Positions 15,080-43,360 of a DNA stretch of 64,000 nucleotides are shown here, piece after piece. The notes under the pieces were generated by a model. That model saw nothing but the letters and a program-made list of their open reading frames with translations. It was not told the origin of the DNA and ran no database searches. The position numbers and the translations under genes are program-made. Positions within the stretch are counted from its first letter, which is position 1, and each line of letters begins with the position of its first letter. Source of the stretch: Nocardia sp. BSTN01 (GTDB lineage Bacteria; Actinomycetota; Actinomycetes; Mycobacteriales; Mycobacteriaceae); assembly GCF_015354405.1 (NCBI RefSeq), contig NZ_JADKYP010000010.1:102062-166061 (forward strand), read 5' to 3'.

Positions 15080-18000
15080 ATGCAGCAGTTCTCCCGGCCG
15101 ACCCAGGAGTGGTTCGACGGTGCGTTCCCCGCGCCCACGACCGCCCAGCTGGGGGCCTGGGAGGCGATATCCGCCGGAGAACACACGTTGGTGATCGCGC
15201 CGACCGGGTCGGGTAAGACGCTGTCGGCTTTCCTGTGGGCGATCGACCGGCTCGCCACCCGCGAACCCACGGACGGTCCGCAGCGCACTGCCGTGCTCTA
15301 CATCTCCCCGCTCAAGGCCCTGGCGGTCGACGTCGAGCGCAATCTGCGCGCCCCCCTGGTGGGCATCACCCGCACGGCCGCCCGGCTCGGTATGCCCGCC
15401 CCGGAGATCAGCGTCGGCGTGCGTTCCGGCGACACCACGCCGGCCGACCGGCGGACCCTGCAGCGCAGGCCGCCCGACATCCTGATCACGACGCCGGAAT
15501 CGCTGTACCTGATGCTCACCTCGGCGGCGCGCGAGACGTTGTCACAGGTCGGCACCGTGATCGTCGACGAGGTTCACGCCATCGCCGGTTCCAAGCGCGG
15601 GGCGCATCTGGCTCTGTCGCTGGCCCGGCTCGATCAGCTCACCGAGCGGCCCGCGCAGCGCATCGGGTTGTCGGCCACCGTCCGGCCGCCGCAGGAGGTG
15701 GGGCGCTTCCTGGTCGGCTCGGCGCCGATCACGATCGTGTCGCCGCCGGCGCCGAAAACGTTCGACCTGTCGGTGCGGGTGCCGGTGGCGGATATGACCG
15801 AGCCGGGCGAATCCGATCAGCCGGGTTCGATCTGGCCGCATGTGGATGCCGCGATCGTGGATCTGGTGCTGGCGCATCGTTCGTCCATCGTGTTCGCGAA
15901 TTCGCGGCGGCTGGCCGAACGTCTGACGGCGCGGCTGAACGAGGAATACGCCGAGCGCATCGCCGCACCGGACGAGGCGGAGGAGGTCGCGGGACGCCGC
16001 GAGCACGCGCCGCCCGCACAACTCGGGTCACCGACCGAGGTCAATCACGGGGCGGCGCCGTTGCTGGCGCGAGCCCATCACGGTTCGGTGAGCAAGGAAC
16101 AGCGCGCCATCATCGAGGACGATCTCAAGAGCGGCCGGTTGCGGTGTGTGGTGGCGACCAGCAGCCTCGAGCTCGGTATCGATATGGGGGCGGTGGATCT
16201 GGTGGTGCAGGTCGAGGCGCCGCCGTCGGTCGCCGGCGGGCTGCAGCGGGTCGGTCGTGCCGGACATCAGGTGGGTGAGATCTCACGCGGGGTGATCTTC
16301 CCCAAACACCGCACCGACGTGATCCACTGCGCGGTGGCGTCGATGCGGATGACGGCGGGACAGATCGAGGAGTTGAAGATCCCCGCTCATCCCCTCGACA
16401 TCCTGGCCCAGCAGACCGTGGCCGCCTGCGCCCTGGAACCGATCGATGTCGACGAATGGTTCGAAACCGTCCGGGGCACAGGCAGTTTCGCCCTCCTGCC
16501 GCGTTCGGCGTACGAATCGGTGCTGGATCTGCTGTCGGGCCGCTACCCCTCCGACGAATTCGCCGAACTGCGTCCACGCCTGGTGTGGGATCGCGATGCG
16601 GGCACGCTGACCGGACGCCCCGGTGCGCAGCGCCTCGCGGTCACCTCCGGCGGCGCGATACCCGACCGCGGCCTGTTCCCGGTGTTCATGGTTGGCGAAA
16701 AGGCCTCGCGGGTCGGTGAACTCGACGAGGAGATGGTCTACGAATCGCGGGTGGGCGATGTGTTCGCCCTCGGCGCGACCAGCTGGCGCATCGAGGACAT
16801 CACCCACGACCGGGTTCTCGTCTCCCCAGCCTTCGGCCTGCCCGGCCGGCTGCCCTTCTGGCACGGCGATTCCCTCGGACGCCCGGCCGAATTGGGTGCG
16901 GCCCTGGGCGAATTCGTCCGCACGGCCGGTCAGGCCGTCGAACGCGCACCGGCCGGGCGGATCGAGGAACTCGTGCGGGATGCGGGCGGTTTCGATGCTG
17001 CGCTCGACGGTGAAGCCATCGACTCCGAGCCGGCGACGCTCGGCCGCGGACGGCAGCAGCCCGCTCGCCGGGCCCTCGGGAACGGCGCCGATTCGATCGG
17101 TGACGAGCAGCCGCGGTCCCCGGCGGTGCGGGCGGAAAGTCCTGCGCCACAACGCCGATCGTCCGCCGACCCCAGCGGAAACGGCGCCACGCGACGCACG
17201 TCCTCCCGCGCGGGAGCCGCGGCCTCCAAGGCGGGTAAGACCGCCGCGAAGGGCGGCGAACTGGTCGAACTCGAACAGCTCGTCCACGCCGCGGGCCTCG
17301 ACGATTTCGCGACGGCAAACCTGGTCGCGCTGCTCGCCGAGCAGCGCCGAGCCACCGGTCATCTGCCGACCGACCGTACCCTGCTGGTCGAACGCTTCCG
17401 CGACGAACTCGGCGATTGGCGGCTGATTCTGCACTCGCCCTTCGGATTACCGGTACATGCGCCCTGGGCGCTCGCCGTGGGTGCGCGGTTGCGGGAGCGG
17501 TTCGGAGTCGATGCCGCGCCGACCGCGTCCGACGACGGCATCGTGGTGCGGCTGCCCGATACCACCGACGATCCGCCGGGCGCGGAACTGTTCGTCTTCG
17601 AACCGGACGAGATCGACGACGTGGTGACAGAGCAGGTGGGCGGGTCGGCGCTGTTCGCCTCTCGTTTCCGCGAATGCGCGGCGCGGGCACTGCTGTTGCC
17701 GCGCCGGGATCCCGGCCGCCGCGCGCCGCTGTGGCAGCAGCGCCAGCGCGCGGCCCAATTGCTCGATGTGGCCAGGAAATTCCCGGATTTCCCGATCCTG
17801 CTGGAAACGGTGCGCGAATGCCTGCGTGACGTCTACGATCTGCCGGCCCTGCGGGATCTGCTGACGAATGTGGCGCGGCGCAAACTGCGACTGGTCGAGG
17901 TCGAGACGGCCTCCCCCTCACCGTTCGCCAATGCGTTGCTGTTCGACTACATCGGCCAGTTCATGTACGAGGGCGACAGTCCGCTGGCCGAGCGCCGCGC

Positions 18001-20005
18001 GGCCGCGCTGTCGCTGGATTCGAGCCTGCTCGCCGAGCTGCTGGGCCGGGTGGAACTACGCGAACTCCTCGACGCCGCGGTCCTCGAACTGACCGAACGC
18101 GAACTGCAACGGCTCACCCCCGAACGCCATGCCCGCGACGCGGAAGGGCTCGCCGACCTGCTGCGACTGCTCGGCCCGCTCACCCCCGCCGAGGCGGCCG
18201 AGCGCTGCACCGCGGACCCGGGCCCGTGGTTCGCCGAATTGCTGCAGGCCAGGCGGGTTCTGGAAGTGTCGTTCGCGGGATCGCGGTGGTGGACGGCGAT
18301 CGAGGACGCCGCCCGGTTGCGCGATGCCCTCGGCGTCCCCTTGCCGATCGGCACGCCGGCGGCCTTCATCGAACCGGTCGCCGATCCGCTGGGTGATCTG
18401 GTCGCCCGCTTCGCCCGCACCCACGCCCCGTTCACCCTCGACGCCGTCGCCCGGCGCTTCGGCATCGGGCCGGCCGTCGCGGCCACCGCATTGCATCGGC
18501 TCGGAGCCGAGAAGCGAGTGGTGGAGGGCGAATTCACGCCGGGTTCGGCCGGTGCGGAATGGTGCGACGCGCAGGTGTTGCGCCGGCTGCGGCGCCGTTC
18601 GCTGGCCGCCGCGCGTAAGGAGGTCGAGCCGGTCTCCATGGGCGCGTTCGGCCGGTTCCTGCCGGCGTGGCAGCATATCGGCACCTCGACCCTGCGCGGC
18701 GTGGACGGGGTGGCCGCGGTGGTGGAACAGCTTGCGGGCGTGCCGATTCCGGCTTCCGCATGGGAGTCGCTCATCCTGCCGTCGCGGGTGCGCGACTACA
18801 CACCGGCGATGCTCGACGAACTCACCGCCTCCGGCGAAGTGCTGTGGTCCGGTCACGGCGCCATCACCGCCAAGGACGGCTGGATCGCCCTGCATCCGGC
18901 GGATCAGGCGCCGGTCACGCTGGGGCCGCCGCAGGAGATCGACTTCACCGATGTGCAGCTGCGCCTGCTGACGGCGTTGGGCGCGGAGATGACCGCGGCG
19001 GCCACCGACGCGATTCCGCTCGACGCCGACGGCACGGTTGCTACCGAATCGGGCGCCGGCAACCGGCTCGTCGTGGTGGCGGGCGGCGCCTATTTCTTCC
19101 GGCAGTTGTCCGATGCGACGGGCGTGCTCGACGACGCGGCCGTGGCGGCGGCACTGTGGGAGCTGGTGTGGGCCGGATATCTGTCCGGCGACACCTTCGC
19201 TCCGGTCCGGGCGCGACTGTCGGGCACTACCCGCAGCACCACCGCCCATCGCACCCCGCGGCGCACCCCGCGCGGGCGCATGTACCTGCCGCGGCCGGCG
19301 ATGCCGACCCGGACCGGCCCTCCCGCCGTGGCCGGGCGATGGTCGCTGCTGCCACAGCGCCTGGCGGACAACACGATTCGCGCCCACGCCACCGCGGATC
19401 TGCTACTGGAGCGCTATGGCGTGCTGACCCGCGGTTCGGTGCAGAACGAGGAGATTCCGGGTGGGTTCGCGCTGATGTACCGGGTGCTCACCGAATTCGA
19501 GGACCGCGGGCGCTGCCGGCGCGGCTATTTCGTCGACACCCTCGGCGGTGCGCAGTTCTCCACCACCGACGTGGTGGATCGGCTGCGCTCCTACGATTCC
19601 GACCGGCTGGGCCCCGGCACCGGCCGGGTCGGCACGGTCGCACTCGCCGCCTGCGATCCGGCCAATCCGTACGGCGCCGCCCTGCCGTGGCCGAAGAACG
19701 CGGGTGAGGGAGCCGGACATCGCCCGGGCCGCAAGGCGGGGGCTCTGGTCGTCCTGGCCGCGGGCGAACTGGCCCTGTACCTGGAACGCGGCGGCAAGAC
19801 GCTGCTCACCTTCACCGAGGATCCCGAAATCCGGACCGAGGCCGCGGCCGCGCTGGCGGCCCTGGTCCACGACCGCCGGATCGACTCCCTGGTCGTCGAA
19901 CGCGTGGACGGAGAATCCGTGCACGGCAACACCTTCGCCACCTTCCTCACCGACGCCGGTTTCCACACCACTCCCCGGGGCTTCCGGCTACGGAGCACGG
20001 CATGA
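15080..20005 (+). CDS. lhr: ATP-dependent DNA helicase Lhr (large, four-domain core plus long C terminus)
   Basis: 1641 aa from ATG 15080. Superfamily 2 helicase motifs are clear: Walker A PTGSGKT at 41-47, DEVH at 163-166, SAT in GLSATVRP, and motif VI QRVGRAGH. A winged-helix region and the long Lhr-specific C-terminal part follow. Lhr translocates 3' to 5' on single-stranded DNA, unwinds DNA and RNA:DNA hybrids and is induced by DNA damage in mycobacteria. About 80 residues (about 648-728) are Ser/Arg/Ala-rich and look disordered; this linker probably accounts for much of the extra length over the mycobacterial protein. nei follows after 41 bp, matching the mycobacterial lhr-nei order. Confidence 0.95.
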   Translation: MQQFSRPTQEWFDGAFPAPTTAQLGAWEAISAGEHTLVIAPTGSGKTLSAFLWAIDRLATREPTDGPQRTAVLYISPLKALAVDVERNLRAPLVGITRTAARLGMPAPEISVGVRSGDTTPADRRTLQRRPPDILITTPESLYLMLTSAARETLSQVGTVIVDEVHAIAGSKRGAHLALSLARLDQLTERPAQRIGLSATVRPPQEVGRFLVGSAPITIVSPPAPKTFDLSVRVPVADMTEPGESDQPGSIWPHVDAAIVDLVLAHRSSIVFANSRRLAERLTARLNEEYAERIAAPDEAEEVAGRREHAPPAQLGSPTEVNHGAAPLLARAHHGSVSKEQRAIIEDDLKSGRLRCVVATSSLELGIDMGAVDLVVQVEAPPSVAGGLQRVGRAGHQVGEISRGVIFPKHRTDVIHCAVASMRMTAGQIEELKIPAHPLDILAQQTVAACALEPIDVDEWFETVRGTGSFALLPRSAYESVLDLLSGRYPSDEFAELRPRLVWDRDAGTLTGRPGAQRLAVTSGGAIPDRGLFPVFMVGEKASRVGELDEEMVYESRVGDVFALGATSWRIEDITHDRVLVSPAFGLPGRLPFWHGDSLGRPAELGAALGEFVRTAGQAVERAPAGRIEELVRDAGGFDAALDGEAIDSEPATLGRGRQQPARRALGNGADSIGDEQPRSPAVRAESPAPQRRSSADPSGNGATRRTSSRAGAAASKAGKTAAKGGELVELEQLVHAAGLDDFATANLVALLAEQRRATGHLPTDRTLLVERFRDELGDWRLILHSPFGLPVHAPWALAVGARLRERFGVDAAPTASDDGIVVRLPDTTDDPPGAELFVFEPDEIDDVVTEQVGGSALFASRFRECAARALLLPRRDPGRRAPLWQQRQRAAQLLDVARKFPDFPILLETVRECLRDVYDLPALRDLLTNVARRKLRLVEVETASPSPFANALLFDYIGQFMYEGDSPLAERRAAALSLDSSLLAELLGRVELRELLDAAVLELTERELQRLTPERHARDAEGLADLLRLLGPLTPAEAAERCTADPGPWFAELLQARRVLEVSFAGSRWWTAIEDAARLRDALGVPLPIGTPAAFIEPVADPLGDLVARFARTHAPFTLDAVARRFGIGPAVAATALHRLGAEKRVVEGEFTPGSAGAEWCDAQVLRRLRRRSLAAARKEVEPVSMGAFGRFLPAWQHIGTSTLRGVDGVAAVVEQLAGVPIPASAWESLILPSRVRDYTPAMLDELTASGEVLWSGHGAITAKDGWIALHPADQAPVTLGPPQEIDFTDVQLRLLTALGAEMTAAATDAIPLDADGTVATESGAGNRLVVVAGGAYFFRQLSDATGVLDDAAVAAALWELVWAGYLSGDTFAPVRARLSGTTRSTTAHRTPRRTPRGRMYLPRPAMPTRTGPPAVAGRWSLLPQRLADNTIRAHATADLLLERYGVLTRGSVQNEEIPGGFALMYRVLTEFEDRGRCRRGYFVDTLGGAQFSTTDVVDRLRSYDSDRLGPGTGRVGTVALAACDPANPYGAALPWPKNAGEGAGHRPGRKAGALVVLAAGELALYLERGGKTLLTFTEDPEIRTEAAAALAALVHDRRIDSLVVERVDGESVHGNTFATFLTDAGFHTTPRGFRLRSTA

Positions 20006-20046
20006 GACCGGCACGCATCGCCCACCGGCACCGGTGGTGAACGCCG

Positions 20047-20853
20047 ATGCCGGAAGGAGATACCGTCTATCTCGCGGCGGCGCGGCTGCGTACCGCGCTA
20101 GCGGGAAAGATATTGACGCGCAGTGATTTTCGCGTCCCGCGCTACGCCACGCTCGATCTGCGCGGCGCCCGGGTCGACAGCGTCGGCAGTTACGGCAAAC
20201 ACCTGTTCGTGCGGACCGAGACGCTCAGCATCCACACCCATCTGAAGATGGAGGGCACCTGGCGGATCTACCGCCCCGGGCAGCGGTGGACCAAACCCGG
20301 ATTCACCGCGCGACTGATTCTCGCCACCGCCGACACCGAAGCCGTCGGGTTCTCCCTCGGCCTGGTCGAGGTGCTACGCCTCGCCGACGAGCACACCGCC
20401 GTCGACCATCTCGGCCCGGATCTGCTGGGCCCGAATTGGGATGCGGCCGAGGCGGTCCGCCGGCTGCGCACGGATCCGGAGCGGCCGATCGGGCTCGCGC
20501 TACTCGATCAGACGACCATGGCGGGAGTCGGCAACATCTTCCGCAGCGAGATCTGTTTCGCCGAGCGGGTCCACCCGGCCACCCCGGTCGCCGCCGTACC
20601 CGATCTTCCCGGACTCGTCGACGCCGCGCATCGCATCCTCGGCCGAGCCGCACACCATCCACCCCGGCCCGCGGTGGTCTACGGCCGGCAGCGCCAACCA
20701 TGCCCCCGCTGCGGATCGATGATCCTCGTCCGCATGCTCGGCCCGGATGCCGCATCCGCGCCCGCCACCGAACGCGGGATCTACTTCTGTCCTCGCTGTC
20801 AGCCCGCACCCGAGACGCCGGAGCCGAGGACCGCAGGCCGGACTCGCCGCTGA
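20047..20853 (+). CDS. nei: DNA glycosylase/AP lyase of the Fpg/Nei family (endonuclease VIII)
   Basis: 268 aa. MPEGDTVY at the start gives the catalytic N-terminal Pro2 and Glu3. The helix-two-turn-helix region (LDQTTMAGVGNIFRSEICF) lies near residues 158-176, and the C terminus has a zinc finger CPRCG...CPRC. Nei removes oxidised pyrimidines and cuts the abasic site. Downstream of lhr by 41 bp, it probably belongs to the same repair operon. Confidence 0.95.
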   Translation: MPEGDTVYLAAARLRTALAGKILTRSDFRVPRYATLDLRGARVDSVGSYGKHLFVRTETLSIHTHLKMEGTWRIYRPGQRWTKPGFTARLILATADTEAVGFSLGLVEVLRLADEHTAVDHLGPDLLGPNWDAAEAVRRLRTDPERPIGLALLDQTTMAGVGNIFRSEICFAERVHPATPVAAVPDLPGLVDAAHRILGRAAHHPPRPAVVYGRQRQPCPRCGSMILVRMLGPDAASAPATERGIYFCPRCQPAPETPEPRTAGRTRR

Positions 20854-20971
20854 TCGGTCACGAACCGCGATGTTTGCCGATCGATAGCTATATCTCTCGG
20901 CCGCTAACACTTCGGAGCGTGAATGCGACATAAGGGCGACACAGATCGTCACCGGTCGGGAAGCAGGGCAG

Positions 20972-21145
20972 ATGACATATGCGAGCACCGCGATGCGTCG
21001 TAGCACACGGCTTGTCACCCAACTGCTGATCACGGCCATCGCCATCGCGGCCACCGTCCTGTTCACCTATGCGCTGCAGCATTCGGTGAGTACGGGCCCC
21101 GTCCATTCCGGTCACACCTCGGCGCCCACGTCGAACGCCCCCTAG
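20972..21145 (+). CDS. Small single-pass membrane protein (57 aa), unknown function
   Basis: A 57-codon frame begins at ATG 20972 and ends in TAG, 9 nt before the glpD stop on the other strand. The translation has a basic N terminus (MRRSTR at residues 8-13), one hydrophobic helix (about 15-36, LVTQLLITAIAIAATVLFTY) and a short Ser/Thr/Pro tail containing two His. Basic-inside topology and helix length are right for a membrane peptide. An internal ATG at 20993 would shorten it by 7 residues. No family is recognised. It could be a spurious frame, but the intergenic space and residue pattern favour a real small gene. Confidence 0.5.
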   Translation: MTYASTAMRRSTRLVTQLLITAIAIAATVLFTYALQHSVSTGPVHSGHTSAPTSNAP

Positions 21146-21154
21146 CCGCCCCGC

Positions 21155-22903
21155 CTACGCCTGGGGCAGCGGCACCGGCTCCAAAATCTCCGGACGGGGC
21201 TCCGGTGCGGCCGCGCGCAGGGCGTCGGCCGAGACGTCGTCGGGTTGGGTCTGGGATCGAATCTCGGCCTCGACGCGGGCGTTGTACGTACTCACCTCGC
21301 GCCGGATCTGCTCCTCGTCCCAGCCCAGTACCGGCGCCACCAGCCGCGCCACCTCGTCGGCGCATTCGGTACCGCGATGGGAGAACTCGATGGAGATGCG
21401 GGTGCGCCGGGCCAGAATGTCGTCCAGATGCAGCGCCCCCTCGGCGACCGCCGCGTAGACGGCCTCCACCCGCAGATATCCGGGCGCGTCCGTAATCGGC
21501 TGCAGCAGTTCGGGTTTGCCCTCGGCCAGATCGAGGACGTCGGTGATCAGGGAGCCGTACCGGTTGAGCAGATGTTCGATCCGGTAGGGATGCACACCGT
21601 AGGTCTGCGCGAGCTGCGGTGTCTGGTTGAGCAGAGCGAAGTAGCCGTCGGCGCCGAGCAGCGGCACCTTGTCGGTGATCGAGGACGACACGCGCTGCGG
21701 GATGTCGCGGACGGCCAGATCCACCGCGTCGTAGGCCATCACCCGGTAGGTGGTGTATTTACCGCCCGCGATGGCGACCAGCCCCGGCGCGATCTGCGCC
21801 ACCGCGTGCTCGCGCGACAGCTTGGAGGTCTCGTCGCTCTCCCCGGCCAGCAGCGGCCGCAGCCCCGCGTACACACCCTGGATGTCGTCGTGGGTGAGCG
21901 GGGTGACCAGTACCTCGTTGATCCGTTCGAGCAGATAGTCGATATCGGCCTTGGTGGCGGCCGGATGAGCCAGGTCCAGATTCCAGTCGGTGTCGGTCGT
22001 GCCGATGATCCAGTGATTGCTCCCCCACGGAATCACGAACAGCACCGAGGTGCGGGTGCGCAGAATCAGCGCGGCGTCACTGGCGATCCGATCGCGCGGC
22101 ACCACGATATGCACGCCTTTGGACGCGCGCACATGGAATCGACCGCGAACATGCGACAGCGCCTGCAGTTCGTCGGTCCATACGCCTGTCGCGTTGATCA
22201 CCACATGTCCGCGGACCTCGGTCGTGCGCCCGTCCTCGCTGTCGCGCACCTTCACTCCGACCACGCGGTCGGCCTCCCGCAGGAAGTCCACGACCTGGGT
22301 CGACGTGCGGATCACCGCACCGTAGTGGGCGGCGGTGCGGGCGACCGTCATGGTGTGGCGGGCGTCGTCGACCACGGTGTCGTAGTAGGTGACACCGCCG
22401 ATCAGCGCGTCCCGGCGCACCCCCGGCGCCAGGCGCAGCGCTCCCGAGCGGGTCACATGATGTTGGCCCGGAACGGATTTCGCTCCGCCCATGGTGTCGT
22501 AGAGCACCAGGCCGGAGGCGACGTAGGGCCGCTCCCAGCCGCGATGGGTCAGCGGGTAGAGGAACCGCAGCGGTTTCACCAGATGCGGGGCCAAGGTCTT
22601 CAGGCTCAGCTCACGTTCCCGCAGCGCCTCGCGGACCAGCCCGAATTCCAGCTGCTCGAGATAGCGCAGGCCGCCGTGGAACATCTTCGACGAACGGCTC
22701 GAGGTGCCCGAGGCCAGATCGCGCGCCTCCACCAGGGCCACCTCCAGGCCCCGGGTGGCGGCATCGAGTGCGATGCCCGCGCCGACGACCCCGCCACCGA
22801 TCACGATGACGTCGAAATGCTTGGCGCCCAAGCTGTCCCAGGTGGCCGCGCGCTGCTCGGGCCCCAGTTCGCCGGTGTGCTGACCGTGTGACTTCTCGTT
22901 CAT
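21155..22903 (-). CDS. glpD: FAD-dependent glycerol-3-phosphate dehydrogenase GlpD
   Basis: 582 aa, normal for GlpD. The N-terminal FAD site is FDVIVIGGGVVGAGIALDAA, followed by SRSSKMFHGGLRYLEQ, which is characteristic of the family, and GTTDTDWN near the middle. It oxidises sn-glycerol 3-phosphate to dihydroxyacetone phosphate and passes electrons to the quinone pool at the membrane. It is divergent from glpK across 132 bp, forming a glycerol-use pair. The last about 30 residues (Pro/Glu-rich) are variable. Confidence 0.95.
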   Translation of the reverse strand: MNEKSHGQHTGELGPEQRAATWDSLGAKHFDVIVIGGGVVGAGIALDAATRGLEVALVEARDLASGTSSRSSKMFHGGLRYLEQLEFGLVREALRERELSLKTLAPHLVKPLRFLYPLTHRGWERPYVASGLVLYDTMGGAKSVPGQHHVTRSGALRLAPGVRRDALIGGVTYYDTVVDDARHTMTVARTAAHYGAVIRTSTQVVDFLREADRVVGVKVRDSEDGRTTEVRGHVVINATGVWTDELQALSHVRGRFHVRASKGVHIVVPRDRIASDAALILRTRTSVLFVIPWGSNHWIIGTTDTDWNLDLAHPAATKADIDYLLERINEVLVTPLTHDDIQGVYAGLRPLLAGESDETSKLSREHAVAQIAPGLVAIAGGKYTTYRVMAYDAVDLAVRDIPQRVSSSITDKVPLLGADGYFALLNQTPQLAQTYGVHPYRIEHLLNRYGSLITDVLDLAEGKPELLQPITDAPGYLRVEAVYAAVAEGALHLDDILARRTRISIEFSHRGTECADEVARLVAPVLGWDEEQIRREVSTYNARVEAEIRSQTQPDDVSADALRAAAPEPRPEILEPVPLPQA

Positions 22904-37970: not shown

Positions 37971-38600
37971 TCAGTCGTGGCGCGGACCGAATTGCCGGTC
38001 GCCCGCATCACCCAGTCCCGGCACGATGAAGGCGTCGGCATTGAGTCCGGAGTCGACCGCGGCGGTCACCAACCGCACCGGCAGGCCCGACTTCTCCAGC
38101 GCGGCAATGCCTTCCGGGGCGGCGACGACACAGACGGCGGTGATGTCGGTGGCGTTGCGGGCACACAGCAGTTCCAGGGTGTGGCGCATGGATCCGCCGG
38201 TGGCCAGCATCGGATCGAGGACGAAGACCGGTAGGCCCGCCAGATCCGCCGGCAGCGATTCCATGTACGGCACCGGACGATGGGTCTGCTCGTCGCGCGC
38301 CACGCCGACGAAACCCACGCGGGATTCCGGAATCAGCGCACTGGCGGCGTCGACCATGCCGAGGCCGGCGCGCAACACCGGCACGAGCAGCGGTGGTTTC
38401 GCCAGCCGGGCGCCCCGGGTCGGTGCGACCGGGGTGTCGATGTCGAAGGTGTGCGTCGGGGCTTCCCGCAGTGCTTCGTAGACGAGGAATCCGGTCAGAT
38501 CGGCCAGTGCCGCGCGGAAACCCGCGTTGGACGTGCGGGCATCGCGCATGGCCGTCAGGAGGGTGGCCGTCAGCGGGTGTTCCACGATATGCGTACGCAT
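37971..38600 (-). CDS. upp: Uracil phosphoribosyltransferase
   Basis: 209 aa from ATG 38600, the normal UPRT length. [22 protein letters not shown] (PRPP-binding loop) and the C-terminal GDAGDRQFG uracil-binding motif are present. It makes UMP from uracil and PRPP, completing pyrimidine salvage with cdd and deoA elsewhere in the window. TATCGT 6 nt upstream supports this start over a longer frame. It converges on pmmB across 223 bp in which I see no gene. Confidence 0.95.
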
Positions 38601-38606
38601 GAGGGA

Positions 38607-38612
38607 ACGATA
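38607..38612 (-). promoter_or_regulatory. -10 element (TATCGT) for upp, leaderless layout
   Basis: TATCGT on the minus strand is 6 nt before ATG 38600, identical in sequence and spacing to the element before deoD. Confidence 0.45.
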
Positions 38613-38746
38613 AGGTCTGTCGGGGTTCGGAATCGTCAACCGAGGGCGGATTTCCGCAACCGGAGTGGGAACCGTTGCGCAGGAGCATGCGTCGAACTAC
38701 TCGGATGACGTAATCTGCCACCAGACCAGCACGATGGGGGATGTTG

Positions 38747-39067
38747 ATGCACAAGATCTCGGTCGACACCGAGGGCGTCGCCGCCTACGGTGCGACAGCC
38801 GCGGGACTGGCCGGTGAGATGGGTGTCGCCGCGGCGGGTGCCGCCGGGGCCGACCCGCTTCTGCTCGGCCCGATCTTCGGACTGGTGGGAGGCGATTTCG
38901 TCGCTGCCTATGCCGCGGCCCACGCCGGGCATGTCGCGGGGATCGGCGAACTGTCCGCGGTGATGGGCAGTGTGGGAGCCGCCGCGACGGGCGCCGCCAC
39001 CACCTATTCCGAAACCGACGCCGCCCACGCCGCCGCACTGCGCGCCGCCGAAGGCCCGATCGGATGA
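38747..39067 (+). CDS. Type VII secretion target-like protein with YxxxD motif
   Basis: 106 aa from ATG 38747, which has GGGGG 6 nt upstream; ATG 38741 is too close to it. The protein is Ala/Gly-rich and helical, without signal peptide, and ends with TTYSETDAAHAAAL, where Y87-SET-D91 matches the YxxxD/E export signal of type VII substrates placed after the second helix. It overlaps the next gene by ATGA, and that gene encodes a protein with a WNG (WXG) turn. The two are therefore likely to fold as an exported heterodimer. Specific family (EspC/PE-like) not certain. Confidence 0.65.
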   Translation: MHKISVDTEGVAAYGATAAGLAGEMGVAAAGAAGADPLLLGPIFGLVGGDFVAAYAAAHAGHVAGIGELSAVMGSVGAAATGAATTYSETDAAHAAALRAAEGPIG

Positions 39068-40206
39068 CGGGCGTCATCGATCTCGACGCACTCGCCCAAC
39101 CACTCATCGATCTGCTCACCAGCTTCGGCTCCGGTGTGCTGCCGGCGGGCGGCCCGGCCGACGCGCTGCGTCAGGTGTCCACCCACCTCGACGGAATCCA
39201 CCAGGCCGGCAGCGCGAGTATCAATCAGATGACCAACGTCTGGAACGGCGGTGGTGGCGACGCCGCGATGGACAAGGCGCTCAAGGTGCAGACCTCGGCG
39301 GCCACGATGTCGGATCGCGGCAACGATATGGCCGACGTGGTCAGCCAGGCCGCCGCCACGGTGCAGACGGGGCAGAAGGAACTCGACGGAATCGTCCAGT
39401 CGTTCGTGCAGTCGGTGACGGCGCTGGGGCCCGCGCTGACGACTCCTCCGGGACTGATCACCGTGGTCAACTCCGCTATCGACCATTTCGGGCAGGCTCT
39501 GAGTGTGGTCGGCCGGGTGCGGTCGGACCTCGACACGCACACCACCTCGATGACCGAACTGACCCCGCCCCCGCCGACGCCGTCCATGTCGGGCACCCCG
39601 GTGGCCGCGGCCTCGGTCGCCGCGCCCGCGCTGAGCACCGGCGCGCAGACGGCCAGTTCACTGCTCGGCGGGCTGGTGTCGAGCGGCGGTTCGATGATGA
39701 GCAGTATGACCAGCCCGGCCTCGGCGGCGACGCAGTCGCGGTCGAGTTCGGGCGCGACGAAAACGCCCGGCGCTCAGCAGTCCGGCGCCGACAAGCCCGG
39801 CCGCCACGGCGGCGTCATGATCACCCTGCCCGACGGCAGCCAGGTCGAGGCACCCAATCAGAAGGCCGCGACCGCGGTCAAGGCGGCGATCAGCGCCTGC
39901 GGCACGCCGTACGTCTGGGGTGGTAACACCCCCGGCGCCGGGCTCGACTGCAGTGGCCTGACCAAATGGGCCTACGGCGAAGCCGGTGTCGACCTGCCCC
40001 GGCTCGCCTGCGATCAGAGCGCCGGCGCGACACCGGTGAGCCCGGGCGATGTGATGCCGGGTGATCTGGCCATCTGGGACGGTCACGTCGCGATGGTCGT
40101 CGGTAACGGACAGATGGTCGAGGCCGGTGATCCGGTGCAGATCGACTCGATTCGAACGGAGAACATGGGAATGGCGTTCCACGGGTTCTACAGGCCGACG
40201 TCATGA
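39064..40206 (+). CDS. NlpC/P60 peptidoglycan endopeptidase fused to a WXG-type helical domain
   Basis: 380 aa. Residues 1-165 are helical with W60-N-G62 at a turn, like WXG100 proteins. A Pro/Ser/Ala linker (about 167-247) leads to an NlpC/P60 domain (about 265-380). Catalytic residues are Cys296 in LDCSGLTKW, His341 in DGHVAMV and a polar Glu353; the spacing of His and third residue (12) equals that of the RipA triad. The domain should cut D-Glu to diamino-acid bonds in peptidoglycan. There is no signal peptide, consistent with export by type VII secretion together with its 106-aa neighbour. It overlaps genes on both sides by 4 bp. Confidence 0.85.
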   Translation: MTGVIDLDALAQPLIDLLTSFGSGVLPAGGPADALRQVSTHLDGIHQAGSASINQMTNVWNGGGGDAAMDKALKVQTSAATMSDRGNDMADVVSQAAATVQTGQKELDGIVQSFVQSVTALGPALTTPPGLITVVNSAIDHFGQALSVVGRVRSDLDTHTTSMTELTPPPPTPSMSGTPVAAASVAAPALSTGAQTASSLLGGLVSSGGSMMSSMTSPASAATQSRSSSGATKTPGAQQSGADKPGRHGGVMITLPDGSQVEAPNQKAATAVKAAISACGTPYVWGGNTPGAGLDCSGLTKWAYGEAGVDLPRLACDQSAGATPVSPGDVMPGDLAIWDGHVAMVVGNGQMVEAGDPVQIDSIRTENMGMAFHGFYRPTS

Positions 40207-40550
40207 GCCAGCCGCAGCAGCAGATCCCTAGCGTCACGGTCGCCGCCAGCACCAATCGCGCCGGCACCATCAGCGTGCGGGCCACCGATCAGGGCATTCC
40301 GGTGGAGATCAAATTCGAGCGCAGCGAATACCGTTACGGCGCACAGGCTTTGGCCGCCGAGATCCTGCGGCTGACCAAGCGGTCGGCGATCGTCGCCAAG
40401 GCGCGCCGGCGCGAACTGCTCGCCGAATCCGGCATGCCCACCGAGATCCTGGACAAATTGGGCCTGCCCACCCGTCAGGAAGCCGTCGACGAACTCGACC
40501 GCATGGACGACGAGGACACCGGACCCACCAGCTGGATGAGGCCGGTATGA
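40203..40550 (+). CDS. YbaB-related small protein of the type VII cassette
   Basis: 115 aa, starting in a 4-bp overlap with the endopeptidase gene. The first 50 residues form a beta-rich part (SVTVAASTNRAGTISVRATD), followed by a basic helical stretch (LRLTKRSAIVAKARRRELLA) and an acidic tail. This resembles the second half of YbaB/EbfC-like proteins that commonly accompany type VII substrates in nocardioform bacteria. It is likely cytosolic. A chaperone or assembly role is a guess from context. Confidence 0.6.
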   Translation: MSQPQQQIPSVTVAASTNRAGTISVRATDQGIPVEIKFERSEYRYGAQALAAEILRLTKRSAIVAKARRRELLAESGMPTEILDKLGLPTRQEAVDELDRMDDEDTGPTSWMRPV

Positions 40551-40617
40551 GCGGCCGGGCTCATACGGCTGATCAGCACAGCATGAGCGCCAGCGCATAT
40601 GCCGGAAAGGACGCACT

Positions 40618-40950
40618 GTGAGCGCGGAAATGGATGCCCTGGTCGCCGCGGCGACGAATAAACTCGAGGCCCTCGAGGCCGCGCTCTACAACCTCAAGAA
40701 CGTGCGCGGTCGCTTCACCGCCGAGGACGGTTCGGTGAGCGTCGAGGTCGACAGCGACGGCGCCCTCGTGGGCCTGGACCTGTCCGAGGCCGTCACCTCC
40801 CATTCTCCGGCCGAAGTGGGCCAGTTGATCATCTGGGCGTGCCAGCAAGCTGCGCAGAACGCGGGAGAGCAGCGCTCCGAGGTGGTCGCCACCCTGAATT
40901 CCGCCTTCACCGCACCCGAATCGGGAAACGTTGGGGGGCGGGCCGAATAG
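40618..40950 (+). CDS. YbaB/EbfC-family protein
   Basis: 110 aa from GTG 40618, with GGAAAGG 7 nt upstream. A helical N terminus (about 1-30) precedes the YbaB core: NVRGRFTAEDGSVSVEVDSDGALVGLDLSEAV, then an Ala/Gln-rich helix. Classical YbaB binds DNA, but the divergent copies clustered with type VII genes may instead act on secretion substrates. Last gene of the four-gene cassette; 34 bp before the next gene. Confidence 0.7.
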   Translation: MSAEMDALVAAATNKLEALEAALYNLKNVRGRFTAEDGSVSVEVDSDGALVGLDLSEAVTSHSPAEVGQLIIWACQQAAQNAGEQRSEVVATLNSAFTAPESGNVGGRAE

Positions 40951-40983: not shown

Positions 40984-42246
40984 ATGGCTTCTGGAGACAT
41001 CGTCCCGATCGAGCTCGGTCTCACCGACGGCGATCTGGTCACCCTGTGGGCACCGCGCTGGCGAGACGGTGACGACGAGTGGGAGGCATTCCTCGGTCAC
41101 GAGGACGAGCTCTACGGATTCGACTCTCCCGCGGAGCTCGCCGCGTTCATCCGGACCAACGACGACAACGATCTCGTGGACCATCCGTCCTGGAAGGTCG
41201 TCGTCGGTTTGTCCGCCGCCGAACTGGAGCCCCACGAGGAGCACGTCTTCGATCTGGTCGGTGTCCCGGAGCTCGCGGCCGGTGAGCCCGACCCGGAGAC
41301 CATCGCCGAACTGGAAGAGACCCTCGAGATGGTCCGCACCATCGGCGAGGTGTGCGAACTCGAGGTGGTCACCAAGTTCTTCGGCTCGCACCCGGTCCTC
41401 GGCGCACTGCCGGCGGGTGTGACCGCGTTCGTGGGCCGCGACGGCGAACAGCTGTGGGATCAGGTCGGCAACGCGATCGCCAAGGACTGGGACCAGGTCA
41501 TCGACGCCATCGATTCGGTGGTGGCCTCGCCCGAGGTCGATGCCGAAGCGCTGGCCGTGGCCGAGGCGGAACTGCTGGCCGCCGAGGAGAACGTCGTCGA
41601 CGCCGAGGACGCCGCCGACACCGACGACGACGACATCGAACCGGTCGACCTCGACGAGGACGAGGACACCGACGAGGAAGACGACGAGGACGAAGAGGAG
41701 ACCTTCTGGCACGAGGTCGGCATCGACCCCGTCAAGATCGTCACCTCCGAGGGCGAATTCTTCACCCTGCGTTGCTATCTGGACGACGAACCGGTGTTCC
41801 TGGGCGGCAACGGCACCATCACCGTCTTCCCCTCCGAACGCGCGCTGGCCCGCTATCTGGCCGACGATCACGACCACGATCTGGCGCGGGTCAGCACCTA
41901 CGGTGAGGTCCGCACGGCGGCGGTCGACGGATCGCTCGAGGTCGAGGTCACCGAGGAGAACGTCTACGTGCTGCCGGGTCTGGCCGACGATCTGGGGCAG
42001 GGCCCCAAGTCGGTCGACATCGACCAGCTCGATCTGGCGGTCGAATTGTTCACCGACGCAGCCGATTACGTCGGCGACGACTCGGTCGAGCAGGCGCTGG
42101 CGAAGTCGACGCCGCTGGGCTGGTACGTCTCCTATCTGCTGGAGCCGGACCCGACCCGGCTGGCGCCGAGTCCGCCGTTCACCGCCGAGGCCGAGAGCTG
42201 GCGGGCCCTGGAACAGGCCTTCGAGAACCGGCTGGAGAAGGGCTAG
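40984..42246 (+). CDS. Conserved acidic actinobacterial protein (Rv3311-like), unknown function
   Basis: 420 aa, the same length I recall for Rv3311, which also sits between upp and add. Two related halves are visible, each with a WAP/FHLG-type beta-rich segment (about 1-140 and 240-380), joined by an extremely acidic linker (about 190-240: runs of Asp/Glu such as EDEDTDEEDDEDEEE). No enzyme motif, membrane segment or signal peptide. The duplicated fold with an acidic hinge suggests a binding or scaffolding role, but nothing specific can be assigned. Confidence 0.85.
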   Translation: MASGDIVPIELGLTDGDLVTLWAPRWRDGDDEWEAFLGHEDELYGFDSPAELAAFIRTNDDNDLVDHPSWKVVVGLSAAELEPHEEHVFDLVGVPELAAGEPDPETIAELEETLEMVRTIGEVCELEVVTKFFGSHPVLGALPAGVTAFVGRDGEQLWDQVGNAIAKDWDQVIDAIDSVVASPEVDAEALAVAEAELLAAEENVVDAEDAADTDDDDIEPVDLDEDEDTDEEDDEDEEETFWHEVGIDPVKIVTSEGEFFTLRCYLDDEPVFLGGNGTITVFPSERALARYLADDHDHDLARVSTYGEVRTAAVDGSLEVEVTEENVYVLPGLADDLGQGPKSVDIDQLDLAVELFTDAADYVGDDSVEQALAKSTPLGWYVSYLLEPDPTRLAPSPPFTAEAESWRALEQAFENRLEKG

Positions 42247-42265: not shown

Positions 42266-43360
42266 TCATCCGATGAGGACGGCGTAACCGGGCTTGATCA
42301 CCTCGTCGATGATGCGCAGCCGGTCCGGGAACGGGATGAACGCCGACTTCATGGCGTTGATGGTGAACCGTTCCAGATCGCTCCAGCCGTAGCCGAATGT
42401 TTCGACCAGCTTGAGCATCTCGCGGCTCATGTCGGTATCGCTCATGAGCCGGTTGTCGGTATTGACCGTGACCCGGAACCGCAACCGGGCCAGCAGGTCG
42501 AACGGATGCTTGTCCAGAGCCGGTACCGCACCGGTCTGCACATTCGACGAGGGGCACAACTCGAGCGGAATCCTTTTGTCACGTACATAATTGGCCACCA
42601 GCCCGAGGGTGGGTTCGGCGCCGTCGCTGTCGAAGATGTCGTCGGTGATCCGCACCCCGTGTCCGAGCCGATCGCAGCCGCAGAACGCCAGCGCCTCGTG
42701 GATCGACGGCAGTCCGAACGCCTCCCCCGCGTGAATGGTGAACTGCGCGCAGTTGGCCCGCATGTATTCGAAGGCGTCCAGATGCCGCGAGGGCGGATAG
42801 CCCGCCTCGGCTCCCGCGATATCGAATCCGCCGACGCCGCGGTCTCGGAAGCGCACCGTCAGTTCGGCGATCTCACGGGAGCGCGCGGCGTGACGCATGG
42901 CGGTCAGCAGGCAGGTCACCCGGATGGGAGTGCCGGCTTCGGCGGCCAGCCGCTCCCCTTCGCGGAACCCGGCCAGGGTGTGCTCGACGACCTCGTCGAG
43001 GGTGAGGTCGCGTTCGAGATGCTGTTCGGGCGCGAAGCGGACCTCGGCGTACACCACGCCGTCGGCCGCCAGGTCCAGCGCGCATTCGCGGGCCACTCGT
43101 CGCAGGCCCTCCGGCGTCTGCATCACCGCCACCGTGTGGGCGAAGGTCTCGAGATAGCGCTCGAGCGATCCGCTGTCGGCCGCCTCGCGGAACCAGTGCG
43201 CCAGCGCCTCCGCGTCGGTGGCGGGGAGCTGGTCGTATCCGCAATCCTCGGCCAGTTCGAGCACGGTCGCGGGACGCAGGCCACCGTCGAGATGGTCGTG
43301 CAGCACGGCCTTGGGGGCCTGGCGGATCGAGGCGAGAGTCAAAGGCATCGGTCCAGTCAT
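42266..43360 (-). CDS. add: Adenosine deaminase
   Basis: 364 aa. Zinc-binding [10 protein letters not shown] replaces the usual HxH motif near residue 20, the catalytic HAGE lies near 210, then GHG and the later C-terminal Asp region NTDNRLMSD. It converts (deoxy)adenosine to (deoxy)inosine, which DeoD then cleaves. ATG 43360 is supported by TAGCGT 6 nt upstream; an in-frame ATG 12 nt further on is less likely. Confidence 0.95.

Follow-up and report, generated by a model that had tools for sequence, protein, structure and literature searches.

A satS-linked cassette of Nocardia and its relatives encodes a candidate type VII-style pair with a predicted peptidoglycan endopeptidase domain

In the literature model of the mycobacterial ESX-1 system, Esp substrates are secreted as heterodimeric pairs, and the YbaB-like proteins EspH, EspD and EspL have been proposed as chaperones of such pairs (PMC6107294, PMC6319747). 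ESX-4 has been reported from every mycolic-acid species that was examined in the genera Mycobacterium, Gordonia, Nocardia, Rhodococcus and Corynebacterium (PMC4791881). Peptidoglycan hydrolases have also been connected with type VII secretion systems (T7SS): EssH is dedicated to the T7SSb of Staphylococcus aureus, and NlpC/P60 proteins have been tied to plasmid-borne actinobacterial T7SSa/ESX clusters (PMC13059805). SatS is a chaperone of another export route, the SecA2 pathway, on which it serves SapM in Mycobacterium tuberculosis, and sapM-satS has been reported in 26 mycobacterial species (PMC6333443). This study concerns a stretch of 64,000 nucleotides from Nocardia sp. BSTN01 (contig NZ_JADKYP010000010.1, positions 102,062 to 166,061; hereafter the window), in which a four-gene cassette, A-B-C-D, occupies positions 38741-40950, directly 5′ of a satS homologue. 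To our knowledge, how type VIIa systems handle peptidoglycan is an open question. No account of a role for SatS outside Mycobacterium was found in the literature searched, and a search of one library brought to notice no description of a type VII WXG-NlpC/P60 pair or of satS neighbours outside that genus. The available text of a review of mycobacterial NlpC_P60 proteins gave no match for ESX or WXG, and the words Corynebacter and Nocardia are absent from the text of the SatS paper in the form available (PMC6333443).

The original prediction, which described four tightly packed genes at 38747..40950, was confirmed on this point. The cassette encodes a small EspC-family protein (A), a larger protein joining a WXG-type helical domain to an NlpC/P60 peptidase (B), and two YbaB-like proteins (D and, less certainly, C). 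Their ratios of nonsynonymous to synonymous substitution rates (dN/dS) are 0.06-0.24 against two relatives, computed, like hydropathy, on a set from which low scorers and six named loci were left out; judged from their sequences, all four are real genes. A and B probably form an Esp-type type VII pair that carries a peptidoglycan endopeptidase, is attended by YbaB-like chaperones and remodels the cell's own wall. The type VII-style pair, the hydrolase and the YbaB-like helpers of the original interpretation are retained in this reading; its interruption of a conserved interval and its antibacterial role are not.

Protein A passes the curated cut-off of the Pfam EspC family (PF10824; 25.9 vs. 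23.5 bits). Of the 56 A proteins compared, 43 have a YxxxD/E motif among their 40 C-terminal residues, against a mean of 5.3 and a maximum of 12 in 200 shuffles; it is missing from 13 of the 56, and six Nocardia A proteins have lost its Tyr. A fusion of A to B was looked for and not found. In B, a helical domain (residues 7-166), with WNG at 60-62 between long helices, is followed by a disordered linker (171-248) and the NlpC/P60 domain (~250-378; Pfam score 66.7 vs. a cut-off of 23 bits), whose catalytic residues C296, H341 and E353 are invariant in 20/20 aligned relatives. Among the 60 genomes of the neighborhood comparison (in which L110 and L144, and likewise L100 and L145, are one genome each and counted once, and to which L129, the second B match of G100, and L069, L070, L073 and L230, from other families, do not belong), the peptidase motifs DCS and GHVA occur in 60/60 and [VI]EAG in 59/60. 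A WxG stands 120-300 residues ahead of the peptidase motif in 49 of the 60 B frames, is absent from 10 and could not be assessed in one. The window's B is only marginally over the Pfam WXG100 cut-off (27.4 vs. 27.3 bits) and is under those of NCBIfam WXG100_ESAT6 (TIGR03930; 18 vs. 44.85 bits) and of the EspA/EspE family (PF18879; 18.1 vs. 27 bits), and the match of its N-terminus to PPE41 is indistinguishable from matches to other helical bundles.

The peptidase fold of B matches RipA, RipB, RipD and Cg1735, and its His-to-Glu spacing of 12 equals that of RipA H432/E444 (RipA residue numbers taken from structure entry titles). B could accordingly be read as an ordinary cell-separation hydrolase of the RipA/RipC kind with a helical N-terminus that is merely WXG-like, all the more as RipC and Cg1735 have long helical N-termini too. 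This seems improbable for a protein that has an EspC-type partner, is found behind eccC in some genomes (see below), scores under every NCBIfam Rip model (RipA 34.8/625, RipB 52.1/335, RipC 68.7/425 and RipD 59.4/215 bits) and shows no obvious signal peptide, as judged from hydropathy only, in contrast to RipA and RipB, which carry one (PMC12067865). As for the small proteins, D passes the YbaB family cut-off (PF02575; 33.5 vs. 25.5 bits), and its profile matches solved YbaB chains (E. coli YbaB, E 1.8e-08) and Rv3716c. The YbaB-like helpers have a precedent in the chaperones proposed for ESX-1 (PMC6107294).

A type VII role is best supported by the relocation of the cassette behind eccC. The co-occurrence with ESX loci that the original prediction proposed to survey was found in two forms. 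On the one hand, in 6/60 genomes belonging to two genera, namely all five of g35 and G083 (g46), the cassette comes straight after eccC in the same orientation, and each of the six EccC proteins passes its NCBIfam cut-off. Of the five g35 contigs, one stops at C and the others carry two Esx-sized genes after D. The Esx-sized pairs tested (G072 and G117) are WXG100 proteins over the cut-off, and in G117 the EccD and mycosin genes adjoin eccC; by gene content rather than by a tree, we judge the g35 locus to be ESX-4-like. The satS locus was read in four of the six genomes (G083, G099, G117 and G134). In the last three, upp and satS are direct neighbors, separated by ~70-105 nt, and no match to A-D was found there. 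In G083, whose full cassette stands behind eccC, an A gene and a 202-amino-acid B′ with the WNG domain and no peptidase (L236:4064-4998) remain between upp and satS. On the other hand, the window's own genome (G000) carries C-D-A-B-like paralogues on contig C1, which also bears two of its three EccC genes; two Esx-like genes follow ~2 kb further (one over the WXG100 cut-off, the other at 24.2 of 27.3 bits), and another A-B-like pair is found after a glmM-like gene of the same contig. G036, which belongs to a different family of the order, has a B-type NlpC gene ~11 kb and a YbaB gene ~15 kb beyond the end of eccC. EccC itself gave a match (E 1e-60) in all 51 genomes tested, 50 of them over the cut-off.

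Further arrangements of this general kind were observed. Contig C2 of G087 (~17603-22213) holds an eccC match and a 348-amino-acid NlpC/P60 frame within 4.6 kb, perhaps a plasmid-type ESX cluster. Three further pairs of an EspC-like gene and a gene resembling the N-terminus of B are present in G000 (L080:6734-8734, L081:4423-6119 and L086:3481-5252); their large partners have no Pfam domain at E 0.05, and the three possibly belong to a wider family of Esp-type pairs.

Relatives of B were detected in 35/35 other genomes of the same genus (E 1.3e-60 or better; split in two pieces in G015 and G024) and in 140 of the 151 family genomes, spread over 28 of 31 genera (E 1e-30 or better), many matches at the latter threshold covering the peptidase half only. 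This distribution bears on the proposal that the cassette is an interbacterial type VII effector system with wall-degrading activity. The layout of WXG module, linker and C-terminal enzyme does resemble that of polymorphic toxins, and NlpC/P60 domains are listed among the toxins of type VI secretion systems, PVC and the TcdB/TcaC type (PMC3482391). However, B is core in the genus, gives a single match (E 1e-30) in 128 of the 140 family genomes with a relative, and hardly varies in its catalytic domain; no candidate for an immunity gene was noticed, D and probably C being YbaB-like and both missing by profile from 13 A-B-satS and two B-satS loci; and type VII is not listed for the NlpC/P60 class in the toxin table as available (PMC3482391). 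For its core status, mostly single match and lack of an immunity-gene candidate, the antibacterial claim is left unsupported, and we hold an effector of this kind to be very unlikely, the least probable of the readings weighed here; the same wide, mostly single-match distribution and the same lack of an immunity-gene candidate favor housekeeping remodelling over attack.

The original prediction overlooked the identity of the 3′ neighbor as satS, an export-chaperone gene. By profile (NF050072, 524.6 bits, E 1.9e-157, nearly full length), this gene is a satS homologue below the mycobacterial equivalog line, set at 700. In 54/60 genomes, the first recognised gene 3′ of B, leaving C and D aside, is a co-directional satS, at a distance of 11-885 nt from the B match. 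Both C and D were found in 34 of these 54 genomes (33 plain A-B-C-D-satS loci, plus L090), 13 have A-B-satS, and the seven others are variants or fragments; A was unmatched by profile in four (L091, L121, L124 and L125), the last three of which have a small unmatched frame 5′ of B. The cassette is the usual occupant of the upp-satS interval. Its description as an interruption of a conserved upp to Rv3311-like interval is ruled out by these 54 genomes, and by G048, from another family, where the order is A-B-YbaB-YbaB-satS-add. In three other outgroup genomes (G038, G042 and G050), satS is present and the cassette is not, so that its place in the interval may or may not be deeply ancestral. The family genomes that lack B, i.e., both of g29, the one of g33, both of g39 and six of the nine of g50, all keep satS. 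In four B-lacking genomes of g50 (Mycobacterium-like), a phosphoesterase (PF04185 in 4/4), which we take from its position to be SapM-like, lies between upp and satS; two others have a DUF218 gene there, and both g29 genomes have a glutaredoxin-like gene 5′ of satS (with a Pfam match in one). Among the best 80 of 584 confirmed B relatives, which formed the scan of named genomes and include a Rhodococcus ruber strain (L213), satS follows B within the stretch retrieved in 66 (3.2 kb away in L193 and 1.1 kb in L207) and not in 14; in the 11 of these 14 loci that were read, the genes called 3′ of B, where any, are others. The adjacency is therefore not absolute, chiefly in Mycobacterium, where its loss in several named genomes sets a limit to the analysis.

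Two loci of the scan depart from the usual layout at or near the end of B. In Rhodococcus triatomae BKS 15-14, a gene (L216:4998-6587) for a large serine recombinase, with the Pfam domains Resolvase and Recombinase, begins directly after the B stop, which suggests a mobile element integrated at the 3′ end of B. In Mycobacterium sp. GA-1199 (L156:4001-5044), the B frame stops early and is followed by atypical genes, possibly owing to another insertion, within the 3′ part of B.

The proximity of satS is the foundation of the main rival explanation, according to which B leaves by the SecA2 pathway as a client of SatS, its stability in the cytoplasm is due to A, C and D, and the type VII features are vestigial. 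Listeria SecA2 does export an NlpC/P60 protein, p60. The satS gene of M. tuberculosis shares an operon with that of its client SapM, whose export requires SatS (PMC6333443). Moreover, Corynebacterium-sized genomes retain the enzyme and the B-satS arrangement and have mostly lost both YxxxD and WxG, a loss that favors the SecA2 route and weakens the type VII case in these genomes. Yet two genera have the cassette behind eccC, at a distance from satS, A falls in the EspC family, and B has no obvious signal peptide by hydropathy; the satS-side copy of G083, which lacks the peptidase of the intact copy behind eccC, is also set against SecA2, although it is readable either way. On balance, SecA2 export of B appears unlikely, if less so than a Rip-type or an antibacterial hydrolase. 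The genes concerned are listed in Table 1, in which the names upp (after the original prediction) and add are presumptive.

Table 1. Coordinates of the cassette and its flanking genes in the window.
Feature	Position	Strand	Remarks
A, EspC-family small partner	38741..39067	+	108 amino acids (106 from ATG 38747); YSETD 15 residues before end
B	39064..40206	+	WXG-type helical half joined by a disordered linker to an NlpC/P60 peptidase
C, probable YbaB-like small protein, proposed chaperone	40203..40550	+	
D, YbaB-family small protein, proposed chaperone	40618..40950	+	PF02575 over cut-off
satS homologue (protein export chaperone family), usual 3′ neighbor	40984..42246	+	NF050072 match
upp (presumed), flanking gene	37971..38639	-	longest of several possible starts
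adenosine deaminase-like gene (add; presumed), flanking	42266..43360	-	

Gene families, sequence and active-site conservation, synteny with satS and relocation behind eccC are observed; the heterodimer, export route, chaperone roles, substrate and purpose set out below are inferences. Under the favored reading of a type VII pair, A and B would associate as a heterodimer with a bipartite export signal, A giving the YxxxD and B the WxG-bearing helical half. C and D would act as dedicated YbaB-fold chaperones, in the manner of EspH, EspD and EspL, and hold the pair in the cytoplasm, with SatS perhaps as a further chaperone, until it leaves through the EccC of an ESX system, most likely an ESX-4-like one. 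Outside the membrane, the tethered NlpC/P60 domain of B would cut peptidoglycan stem peptides, by analogy with RipA at the bond from D-Glu to meso-diaminopimelic acid, and so remodel the cell's own wall, perhaps making way through the peptidoglycan for the ESX apparatus or its cargo, a service that EssH provides to the type VIIb system of S. aureus. That satS adjoins A-B in most genera points to an older client of SatS. We advance, tentatively, that the ancestral ESX-4-like system of mycolic-acid bacteria has in A-B a self-exported enzyme to open the wall, and that SatS was first the chaperone of this pair, later taken over by SapM and SecA2 where A-B was lost. A core type VII-style hydrolase located by satS in most genera, or by eccC in two, makes the questions of type VIIa and peptidoglycan and of SatS testable, and designates A-B as candidate cargo for ESX-4.

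Among described systems, EspE-EspF-EspH and EspA-EspC-EspD (with EspL) of ESX-1 likewise combine an EspC-family YxxxD protein, a larger WxG-type partner and YbaB-like chaperones. Unlike in these sets, the larger partner here bears a catalytic NlpC/P60 domain and has only a sub-threshold EspA_EspE match, and the genes follow the order A-B-(C-D), by satS or behind an ESX-4-like eccC. EssH of S. aureus differs by its CHAP domain, its type VIIb system and its general architecture, and its dedication to secretion is described where that of B is inferred. The NlpC/P60 proteins of T7SSa clusters, whatever their architecture, are plasmid-borne, whereas B is encoded on the chromosome, belongs to the core of the genus and combines its peptidase with a WXG-type domain and an EspC-family partner. 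RipA, RipB and RipC of mycobacteria share with B the NlpC/P60 fold and the Cys-His-Glu pattern, RipA and RipB having signal peptides and other N-termini. Finally, the sapM-satS operon of M. tuberculosis likewise places the gene of a secreted protein directly 5′ of satS; SapM is a SecA2-exported phosphatase, whereas the occupant of this position in Nocardia is a type VII-like hydrolase pair.
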